Part shown: one piece after another, positions 396 through 13,306 of the stretch
How positions within the stretch are numbered: position 1 is the stretch's first letter
How the letters are laid out: each line of letters begins with the position of its first letter
Source: a virus
Length of the DNA stretch: 31,910 nucleotides
Reading direction: 5' to 3' (one strand)
Virus record (IMG/VR): IMGVR_UViG_3300042922_000937
Span: 1 to 31,910 of that record
Notes under the pieces: model-generated
Told to the model about the DNA's origin: nothing
Databases searched by the model: none
What the model saw: the letters and a program-made list of their open reading frames with translations, nothing else
Made by a program: the position numbers and the translations under genes

Positions 396-647
396 TTATC
401 CGTTATATCCATATTCACAAAGGATTACAATCTTTTCTCCGCTTGGAGTAGTATAGTTACGTTCATCTGTTTCATATTCGTTGCCCCAACCATCATAAGA
501 AATCTGATCACCCCAATCATTTTCTACTGTTGTTTCTCCGCTAACCCATTTATCGTATTCTTCTTTAGTCAGAACCAACGTAGAATGATAGCTGCTTGAG
601 TTAGTGGCAAATCCCTTTTTAATATTCCGCAAAAATAGTTTAATCAT
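396..647 (-). CDS. 83-aa protein with N-terminal GFATNSSSYHS motif; candidate substrate of the adjacent radical SAM enzyme
   Basis: Residues 12-22 read GFATNSSSYHS, close to a G-F-x-T-N-S-S-S-S-x motif that I recall near the N-terminus of many small phage and bacterial proteins of unknown function. After a basic start (residues 1-11) the remainder is acidic and rich in Tyr, Trp and Gly and ends ...YGYNG. The gene starts 15 bases after the stop of the radical SAM gene and ends at a terminator, so the two are the last genes of one transcript. That adjacency suggests, without proving, that this is a peptide modified by the radical SAM enzyme. It could equally be an unrelated small phage protein. 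Sure of the gene, unsure of the role. Confidence 0.8.
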   Translation of the reverse strand: MIKLFLRNIKKGFATNSSSYHSTLVLTKEEYDKWVSGETTVENDWGDQISYDGWGNEYETDERNYTTPSGEKIVILCEYGYNG

Positions 648-662
648 ATAATCATTCTCCTT

Positions 663-1604
663 TTAGTTAAATGTTTTTAAATTTCCGTATTTTCTTACTT
701 CACCAAAAGCTTCAGTGATGTCAAAATCTTCTGTGATCTTCCCTTGAAATTCTAAATTGTAACTTGATTGAGAGTAGAACTCTTCCACACAATCAATGTT
801 CATGGAATACTCACCCTCTTTGATGTCATAGGTTAATTTGCTACTTACTTCCTTAACCACATCGATATAGTCTTTTACAAATTTTGTGTCACATTGAAGC
901 GATACTTTATTCTTAATTATGTATTCGAAAATTTCTTTCATGCTCTCAACGTGCACTGGTGTAACATTCTTACCTCTACCATTCGTCTTGTATCCTAGAA
1001 ATAGCACATCGCTTTCTGAAGACTTGTCCCCAACCTCAGCCAAAATCTTGAGTAGCATCTCTTTGTTATACAGGTCTGGAATTACGTGAAAACAAATTCG
1101 TGATGGAATGTAACATTCGATTTCTTTAAGACTCTCAACGACTTTTTTTATCTGTCCTCTGCCTGTAATTGAAATCCCAATTGCATCTAAATGCGGCATC
1201 ACCTCTTTAACCTTGTCGGAATAACGTATAACACTCTGCCAATTCATTGTAATGTTCGAAGAGTTCAATCCCTGTTCTCTTGAAAACTTCAAAATTCCTA
1301 TGATGTCTGGATGCTGTAATACATCACCTCCTCCAAAAGCAACCTCAGTAATTTCAGGGTTTAACGACTTAATTACTGTTTTGATTGTTTCTAATTTTCC
1401 ATGCACACTGTCTGAGCGAGAGTCTTGATAGCACCATGTACAACCAATATGGCAAACATCCGTAAGTTTAATATCTACTAATTCAGGATGTTCAGGATTT
1501 AATTCAACATCAGGAGATTCAGATAGTCTTAGTGCAACTCTTTTGTTGTCCTGGTAATCAAGGAGTATGTAATAATTACCGTTCTTAATGAAGTTATTAG
1601 TCAT
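663..1604 (-). CDS. Radical SAM enzyme, 313 aa
   Basis: The CxxxCxxC cluster that holds the [4Fe-4S] of radical SAM enzymes is at Cys51, Cys55 and Cys58 (CHIGCTWC). The following FGGGDVLQHPDI stretch matches the GGEP-type SAM-binding motif, with Asp in place of Glu. No SPASM-like C-terminal cysteine cluster is present (later cysteines are scattered) and I see no clear RRE/PqqD-like leader-binding domain in the first 45 residues. QueE-type deazaguanine enzymes are shorter and differ, so a link with the 7-deazaguanine genes at 8379-10158 is not supported. The ATG follows GGGGGATAT. It lies between a 54-aa basic peptide gene (1638-1802) and the 83-aa NSSSYHS gene. The substrate is unknown; peptide modification is an inference from context. 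Confidence 0.9.
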   Translation of the reverse strand: MTNNFIKNGNYYILLDYQDNKRVALRLSESPDVELNPEHPELVDIKLTDVCHIGCTWCYQDSRSDSVHGKLETIKTVIKSLNPEITEVAFGGGDVLQHPDIIGILKFSREQGLNSSNITMNWQSVIRYSDKVKEVMPHLDAIGISITGRGQIKKVVESLKEIECYIPSRICFHVIPDLYNKEMLLKILAEVGDKSSESDVLFLGYKTNGRGKNVTPVHVESMKEIFEYIIKNKVSLQCDTKFVKDYIDVVKEVSSKLTYDIKEGEYSMNIDCVEEFYSQSSYNLEFQGKITEDFDITEAFGEVRKYGNLKTFN

Positions 1605-8378: not shown

Positions 8379-8900
8379 CTAATTGTTTTTTAGGTATCGT
8401 TTGATAACCAAAAATCCAATGAACTGCATCAAAGTCTTAACAATCACCTGGCCCAAGATGGCATAGATCAGAGCATTCCAAGGAATAAAACCTGCTCCAA
8501 GTGGAGACAGTCCAATAATTACAAAGAGTGCTGAATCAATAGTTCCTCCTACTGTCCCACTTACGAGAACCTTTTTCTGAAATGATCCTTTAAGTCGAGT
8601 GAATACTTCTGTGTCAAATGTTTCAGAAAAGATAAAAGAGACAGCACTAGCAAATACAATCCAGAGTGTATCTCCTAGTAGCCAGGAGGAAACTGCCGAT
8701 AAGATTAGCGCCAAAATGATAACTAGATATGTATTTTTACGACCAAATTTTTGTTGAACCAAGTCTCTAAAGATAAAGGTTGCCCCTATAAAGAATGTTC
8801 CCATTGGGACGATAAATCCCCATGCAGTTAAAGGCGTAAAACTTGCGGTGACAACATTTGCGATGATAATTCCCAATACGTATAACATAATTCTAATCAT
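8379..8900 (-). CDS. VUT-family queuosine-precursor transporter (YhhQ-like), 173 aa
   Basis: Probable membrane importer of a 7-deazaguanine precursor. About five membrane segments are visible. The family signature FRDLVQQKFGRK follows the second segment; SFIFSETFDTEVFTRLKG and GGTIDSALFVIIGLSPLG match the conserved acidic and DS motifs of COG1738 proteins. It is shorter than E. coli YhhQ (about 220 aa). The gene lies 12 bases below the DpdA-like transglycosylase gene, which supports a role in feeding the base exchange reaction. The ATG follows AAGGGAGAGATTTT. Confidence 0.85.
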   Translation of the reverse strand: MIRIMLYVLGIIIANVVTASFTPLTAWGFIVPMGTFFIGATFIFRDLVQQKFGRKNTYLVIILALILSAVSSWLLGDTLWIVFASAVSFIFSETFDTEVFTRLKGSFQKKVLVSGTVGGTIDSALFVIIGLSPLGAGFIPWNALIYAILGQVIVKTLMQFIGFLVIKRYLKNN

Positions 8901-12136: not shown

Positions 12137-13306
12137 TTAATCCTGAGTCCATGCCTCGTACTCTTCTTTTGGCACTTCTCGCATTATGTATGCTTTCTTA
12201 GTTAAGATTCCATAACTTGAATTCTTTGAATGGAATGAATCAAACGGGATATATGCTTCAAGTAGTACACCGATATTATGATACGACGATTTCATTATCT
12301 CGCCTTTTTCATTGAAATATAAATAATTGCTACCTTTTGGTTTTGCTGCATTATCTACTTTATATTCAAATTCACTATCCCAATGACTTATGTATCTTCC
12401 ATCAACCTTTTTTACAAATTTATAGAACTTTCTACCCTCAATAAAATCTCTCGCTTCAATTTCAATCGTCTCTTTAGGGTTGTAATCAATTTCTTTTAGT
12501 GTTCCGTTTCTGGTTACTCTATATGTATTTTCATTGATTTGAACAATTTTAACTGGCTGTTTTTGAATTCGTTGAATTACTTCATCAATATCTTTGAATT
12601 CGATATTCTTTGGTTCGATAAAGTAATCATCACTTTGGGTAATATTTGAAATTTTATCAAGGATCAGGTCAATGGAGAATTCTTCTCCTTCTTTAAGTTG
12701 GATCAACTTGTCGTAGTTAACTCCATACATTCCTCCAAGATGATTCTTTAACTCTTCGACAGTTCTAATTTTCATATCTATACATTTCAATGCAACCCTT
12801 AGAAACTCTGGTTTCGAAATATTATAGCCCTTTTCCTTGTATTTATTTACACGTAGTAGCGAAACAATGGGAAAATCAGTATTTTTATTGAACTTGAGAA
12901 TTCTTTGAGAGTTATGTTTCAAGAAGTCATCGTGTAAGATAAATTCCTCAGTTTGAAAATCAAATGCTCCCATACAAACCGTGTAATCAAAACTGTCAAA
13001 TATATCTTCGGCTTTCTCATAATATTTAAAATGAATAAATTGAACCTCAGTGTCAGCAACACGTACAAGTAATGCTTTTTCAGTTAGCGCATTGATCCAA
13101 TCTCCACTGTCTTCCCAAACTGCCTCAATAATCTCTGTTAGTGAATCTTCGTTCCTAAAGTACACATCAATATCATTAATATCCCTGTTGCTGAATAAAC
13201 TACTGATTGTTCCTCCGGCAATGAATACCTTCTGTTCCTTAAATACATTGACCAAATGTTGTCCCAAGTAATTGTAAAGCTTATTCTTTTCAAATTGATA
13301 ATTCAA
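12137..13306 (-). CDS. Nucleotidyltransferase-fold protein, 389 aa, TTG start
   Basis: The first 130 residues match a Pol-beta-type nucleotidyltransferase: FIAGGTISS (residues 28-36, the GG...S motif) and NDIDVYF (Asp45 and Asp47, metal ligands), then SFDYTVCMGAFD. This resembles tRNA-CCA/poly(A)-polymerase-like domains and the DUF-type phage transferases. The C-terminal 100 residues form a separate beta-rich part ending in MREVPKEEYEAW. The substrate is unknown. The TTG start follows AGGAGGATGATTAT and the gene is the first below the 13348-13392 promoter. Confidence 0.8.
   Translation of the reverse strand: MNYQFEKNKLYNYLGQHLVNVFKEQKVFIAGGTISSLFSNRDINDIDVYFRNEDSLTEIIEAVWEDSGDWINALTEKALLVRVADTEVQFIHFKYYEKAEDIFDSFDYTVCMGAFDFQTEEFILHDDFLKHNSQRILKFNKNTDFPIVSLLRVNKYKEKGYNISKPEFLRVALKCIDMKIRTVEELKNHLGGMYGVNYDKLIQLKEGEEFSIDLILDKISNITQSDDYFIEPKNIEFKDIDEVIQRIQKQPVKIVQINENTYRVTRNGTLKEIDYNPKETIEIEARDFIEGRKFYKFVKKVDGRYISHWDSEFEYKVDNAAKPKGSNYLYFNEKGEIMKSSYHNIGVLLEAYIPFDSFHSKNSSYGILTKKAYIMREVPKEEYEAWTQD

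Follow-up and report, generated by a model that had tools for sequence, protein, structure and literature searches.

An N-terminal NSSS tag paired with a radical SAM enzyme in phages: a candidate protein modification system

The gene pair and its phage

Two adjacent genes in a 31.9-kb virus record raise the question of what a radical SAM enzyme does beside a small protein with an N-terminal NSSS motif. The whole record of 31,910 nucleotides is hereafter called the window, and both genes lie on its minus strand. The enzyme (313 aa, positions 663 to 1604) belongs to the radical SAM superfamily: its score of 34.8 bits passes the 29.5-bit cut-off of Pfam Radical_SAM (PF04055), and its CxxxCxxC cluster at Cys51/55/58 reads CHIGCTWC. 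It is also a member of PHROG_16999 (E 1.2e-32), a phage radical SAM family described as 'Fe-S oxidoreductase', in which pairing with a tagged protein is not annotated. The downstream gene (396 to 647) encodes an 83-aa protein, follows after 15 bases (648–662) and has a good ribosome-binding site, an AGGAG about 9 bases 5′ of its ATG that overlaps the end of the enzyme gene. Residues 12 to 22 of this protein, encoded at 582–614 on the minus strand, are G12-F-A-T-N-S-S-S-Y-H-S22 (GFATNSSSYHS). An inverted repeat at 329–384 lies beyond the pair (17-nt arms at 329–345 and 368–384, 88% complementary, loop of 22 nt) and is followed by a U-run on the minus strand, so that it is probably the terminator of both genes; it is absent from the list of the consensus terminator scanner because its loop exceeds the limit of that scanner. 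The two reading frames 15 bases apart, the cysteine cluster and the motif are thus present as the first-pass annotation had described them, and the shared terminator that it had proposed is probable.

The phage itself looks SPbeta-like, judging from one protein that matches SPbeta-type phages and from the relatives of its Y-family polymerase, which are 68–83% identical and occur in seven viral contigs. The protein in question (389 aa, 12137–13306, minus strand) is 46.6% identical to the annotated Gad2 of the Bacillus phages SPbetaL6 and SPbetaL7. Gad2 is known as an anti-Gabija protein, and by this similarity the gene is a possible counter-defence gene. Another gene on the minus strand (8379–8900) encodes a member of the Vut_1 family (PF02592, 49 bits), a phage-encoded transporter of the vitamin/queuosine-precursor type.

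Linkage of the enzyme to tagged proteins

The first-pass annotation had asked whether NSSS proteins and the enzyme co-occur otherwise than at random. Scans with the single window proteins gave almost no matches, and an alignment-based scan was productive: an alignment of four enzymes, carrying no information on the small protein, recovered 71 loci from IMG/VR. An ORF with the motif [TS]NSSSxH was found in 63 of these 71 loci, mostly on the same strand and no more than a few hundred bases away. Viral contigs are often fragments, and since the loci are not independent, counts are given by cluster (80% identity, genome contigs included) where possible. A TNSSSxH protein was encoded within 3 kb on the same strand for 57 of 63 enzyme clusters, as against 1 of 63 in the opposite-strand control; if small changes of the motif were allowed, the values were 60/63 and 2/63. 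The three remaining clusters comprise two cut at contig edges (L058 and L075) and one (L078) with an ETNSSSSHS gene on the opposite strand. Over all loci, 289 motif ORFs were on the strand of the enzyme and one on the other, and shuffled ORFs of the same loci gave no match to the motif in 1.34 million residues. The reverse search, starting from tagged proteins, found the enzyme within 8 kb in 68 of 80 loci and elsewhere on the contig in 5 of the other 12 (73/80 in total). The pairing is therefore not random. For some tagged loci the contig, such as the 136-kb one of L147, was without the enzyme; these contigs may be fragments, but they count against the modification reading set out below.

The pair, defined by a protein whose N-terminus carries a [TSC]NSSSxH tag and which is encoded next to the enzyme, as in the window, or fused with it, also occurs in phage isolates or complete genomes (Lak, Ma-LMM01, RM378, phiYS40 and Arash). 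A tblastn search with the 83-aa protein returned only Lak phages and Salmonella phage Arash, both with the enzyme within about 3 kb. Among bacterial genomes, 17 of 20 combined a tagged protein with the enzyme and two more carried ETNSSIxH. In the Microcystis phage MaMV-DC, a transposase gene (L184, 2211–2885) stands between the genes for the tagged protein and the enzyme.

In one branch of the enzymes the two parts form a single polypeptide of about 450–500 aa, with the tag and a class A-like domain (see below) N-terminal to the enzyme. A dedicated scan found this fusion in 74 of 79 loci of the branch, a fraction biased by the use of the tag as one of the two scan patterns; the fusions themselves are real. 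They include gp146 of Salmonella phage Arash and plasmid proteins of Methylobacterium and Deferribacter, and two other loci (L245 and L260) have separate adjoining genes, as in the window. One phage contig (L029; 7058–8882 and 13411–15240) holds two enzymes, the first free-standing with ETNSSSTHS partners and the other fused to a CNSSSTHS tag; the fused enzyme has a C-terminal extension.

A second arm of the system was found with proteins of the form FV[ST]NSSSxSF, encoded by chromosomes, plasmids and pseudotevenviruses, which pair with SPASM-type relatives of the enzyme. This bears out the connection to the widespread GFxTNSSSS proteins that the first-pass annotation had drawn. Pairing was seen for 7/7 plasmids with the Agrobacterium-type protein, for 8/8 Bacillota chromosomal loci with flanking sequence (a ninth lies at a contig edge), and for 27/36 viral loci, 23 of them in the fetched stretch and 4 elsewhere on the contig. 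The strict pattern GF[VA][ST]NSSSSSF had no match in 146 genomes of one bacterial order; a looser one had two true matches in 299 genomes, both adjoining a radical SAM gene. Pseudotevenviruses had served as a negative contrast, with no NSSS partner within 4 kb on either side of the enzyme; this was overturned by phage phi5, which encodes the enzyme and, about 20 kb away in trans, two MKIRSGFVSNSSSSSF proteins; the pseudotevenviruses thus belong to the second arm. On Agrobacterium and Rhizobium plasmids (L191, L192), a SMEK-domain protein, with a weak NACHT match in L191, precedes the FVSNSSSTSF protein and the SPASM radical SAM gene, an arrangement that suggests a defence-like operon.

The tag might have a role of its own, for example in translation or turnover, the enzyme being linked to it merely through common phage gene neighbourhoods. 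The pseudotevenviruses would fit this explanation, since their partners are encoded some 20 kb away from the enzyme gene and the related phages that have one gene are nearly the same as those that have the other; their near-equal counts (174 and 173 records) result from close kinship and are not independent events. However, the linkage is reciprocal across very distant phages and bacteria, the genes are often immediate neighbours, and they are fused. Furthermore, the seven contigs with polymerases related to that of the window showed no match to the window enzyme and no motif in the stretches sampled around the polymerase, which indicates that the cassette is probably accessory in this phage group; the control is a small one, as the polymerase scan, aimed at viral loci generally, gave only seven relatives. 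An independent role of the tag is thus scarcely credible. The proposal of the first-pass annotation that enzyme and NSSS protein form one system is strongly supported by their fusions, by linkage in both search directions and by repeated adjacency in phages that are unrelated, and a functional link between them is close to certain. The pairing is apparently widespread and undescribed: a literature search, whose coverage mostly excluded subscription papers and preprints, returned no description of the motif together with radical SAM enzymes, phages or RiPPs. Phages abound in proteins with an N-terminal NSSS motif. Comparison with Pfam, PHROGs and NCBIfam gave no assigned function for those included in it, and the tie of these proteins to one clade of enzymes makes their function directly testable.

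The tag and the proteins that carry it

The tag was analysed in 209 tagged ORFs with less than 70% identity (among them two short spurious ORFs and one fused enzyme). The search pattern fixed the Asn, the first two Ser and the His of the tag. At positions left free, Arg at −6 was found in 98%, Phe at −2 in 90%, Glu at −1 in 97% and the third Ser in 96%; the loci had partly been collected with the pattern [GS]V[FW]ETNSS, which favours such letters, and the loci found through the enzyme carry the same tag. The commonest form in phages is Arg-x-Gly-Val-Phe-Glu-Thr-Asn-Ser-Ser-Ser-x-His-Ser, and in 191 of the 209 ORFs the tag is found 10–11 residues from the initiator Met. Both serine codon boxes are common at every Ser position of the tag, showing that selection acts on the protein. 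The residue corresponding to the Tyr of NSSSYHS is Thr in 54%, Val in 16% and Ser in 11% of the partners; Tyr, which had been included in the Ser/Tyr/His segment proposed for modification, is therefore unlikely to be the target. The His at +6 is missing from the partner of phiYS40 and from the second arm, and this speaks against the modification reading as well. The residues common to all tag classes are N-S-S(-S), and the likely target is placed in this core because both arms have N-S-S-S in common.

The partners, mostly about 80–260 aa long, fall behind the tag into class A (125), class B (70) and others (12) that fit neither. Class A bodies contain conserved DH and GNDN motifs, and the class A tagged proteins match PHROG_28997, to which no function is assigned. 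Compared without the tag, class A and class B bodies had nothing detectable in common (hhalign probability 0.85%). To judge from these alignments, unrelated protein bodies have only an N-terminal tag of about 15 residues in common. The window partner belongs to class B: its body matched a class B profile built without the tag and without the window protein itself (E 2.3e-13). An AlphaFold2 model of this partner had a mean pLDDT of 82.9, and the beta-alpha-beta-beta body reached about 93; residues 1–18 were mostly of low confidence, residues 11–15 falling below 50. A comparison of the class B body with the PDB gave no convincing structural match (best Z 3.6), a result which speaks to neither novelty nor function.

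Such a tag, conserved at the N-terminus while the bodies vary, is also compatible with a function in docking or as a leader, and this counts against the modification reading. The enzyme would then alter the body of the partner, for example at the DH and GNDN motifs conserved in class A; the tag stands, leader-like, at a fixed distance from the Met. However, the bodies of classes A and B are unrelated and offer no common candidate target, and 12 more bodies belong to neither. We regard this main rival as unlikely and infer that the tag itself serves as substrate and not for docking, with Ser or Asn as the modified residue.

Two loci show further variants of the tag. In phiYS40 (L181, 4015–6032), YS40_162 starts with MRRLKEVRLTSMTNSSSASML, a tag without His, and its gene has 4 bases in common with the enzyme gene YS40_161. 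In L080 (7061–8729), tandem small proteins with HSVVEIITNSSTVIY, a third variant of the motif, stand directly before a distant relative of the enzyme.

Fold of the enzyme and candidate chemistry

For the pair, the general Radical_SAM model was the only one of Pfam, NCBIfam and PADLOC to score above cut-off. Membership in the His-Xaa-Ser maturases HxsC was rejected (NCBIfam TIGR03977, 22 bits against a cut-off of 267.9), and so was MoaA, the profile score being far under its cut-off. In a tree of the relatives the window enzyme sits on a long branch between the fused and the ETNSSS branches, its exact placement being unsure.

The first-pass annotation had seen no SPASM domain in the window enzyme, and alignments bore this out as far as the SPASM cysteines are concerned: Ser occupies the auxiliary-cluster positions. 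The window enzyme reads QSSY there, and sequences of the phage branch have Ser in place of the first auxiliary Cys; the relatives from pseudotevenviruses and Agrobacterium keep PCSF and later Cys in the same alignment. The window enzyme therefore appears to derive from SPASM enzymes that act on peptides, with a presumed loss of the auxiliary clusters. Many peptide-modifying SPASM enzymes need these clusters, and an arm that appears to be without them is a further point against the modification reading.

The fold was approached through a fused relative in place of the window enzyme itself, for which an AlphaFold2 model was compared with solved structures (pLDDT 79.9, pTM 0.82; the AlphaFold2 runs used shallow alignments of 13 and 56 rows). 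The best match of this model was SuiB with bound precursor (Z 20.8, rmsd 3.4, 285 aligned residues), followed by SkfB (Z 19.2), viperin (Z 17.5), PqqE, MoaA (Z 16.2), EpeE and anSME (Z 14.4). The likeness to SuiB and SkfB extends over the core and the strands before it, which align with the N-terminal part of SuiB; the window enzyme differs from both in its Ser at the auxiliary-cluster positions and in giving no Pfam RRE match. This likeness could point to a RiPP natural product pathway with a processed and exported peptide. However, the tagged partners are proteins of at least 80 aa, most of the length range given above, and the body of the window partner is confidently predicted to be folded. 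Moreover, no protease, exporter or RRE model was matched among the genes beside the pair, scanned in the window up to 6.4 kb on one side; the other side holds one ORF before the window ends. A pathway to an exported peptide is thus very improbable.

The proximity of viperin and MoaA folds raises another explanation, in which a small molecule is the product of the enzyme and the tagged proteins serve it as regulatory or carrier subunits. Prokaryotic viperins have a related fold and a weak, partial profile match, also with the PADLOC viperin models, but the window enzyme scored 33.6 bits with NCBIfam NF038283 against a cut-off of 180, and its membership in that family was rejected. Viperins act on a nucleotide, whereas here the partner is a protein; a protein substrate better fits several different partners per enzyme and the fusions, and the nearest folds are peptide maturases. 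We consider a small-molecule product improbable. Among the other neighbours by fold, anSME are radical SAM enzymes whose reaction is the oxidation of a Ser or Cys residue in another protein. The window pair differs from them in that the partner has no [CS]-x-[PA]-x-R sulfatase motif and the enzyme no auxiliary-cluster Cys.

Adjacency, reciprocal linkage, fusions, a tag on unrelated bodies and the predicted RiPP-maturase-like fold of the fused relative support the reading that the partners are modified, and proteins with the NSSS motif are very probably the substrates of an enzyme dedicated to protein modification. We think it fairly probable that the pair is a two-part phage post-translational modification system in which the enzyme radically modifies the Asn-Ser-Ser-Ser core of the tag in folded intracellular proteins. 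The enzyme would recognise the short flexible N-terminal tag of its partner, and the 5′-deoxyadenosyl radical would change a residue of the core, most likely a Ser; epimerisation, dehydrogenation and cross-linking are candidate chemistries. The products would be whole folded intracellular proteins and not a secreted peptide. One enzyme would typically serve one to six tagged proteins, the tagged domain of the fused branch would be modified in cis, and the modification may activate the partners during infection. The system would be a variant within radical SAM protein and peptide maturation. We give slightly less than even odds to a wider reading, in which a radical SAM clade spread over jumbo phages, pseudotevenviruses, plasmids and bacterial chromosomes generally recognises its substrates by an [ST]NSSS tag at their N-terminus. 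These enzymes would equip folded proteins inside the cell with a new modification or a protein-derived cofactor, acting in trans or, where tag and enzyme are fused, on their own chain. If modification proves true, phages possess a radical chemistry dedicated to proteins of their own, in which an enzyme has several substrates and fusions occur naturally in cis; its carriers include the Lak phages, which are among the largest known, and isolates amenable to culture.

Some relatives of the enzyme depart from the arrangement in the window. Those of pseudotevenviruses have a CX7CX2C cluster motif (L007, 3908–5059), and another relative (L196, 397–1482) has a wider cluster spacing (GHCVHGKSGLCLKAGVQCYQ). 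In the L118 contig (G154:C1, 75016–75744 and 77116–77292), an interruption of about 1.4 kb, which may be an intron, divides this otherwise conserved radical SAM gene.
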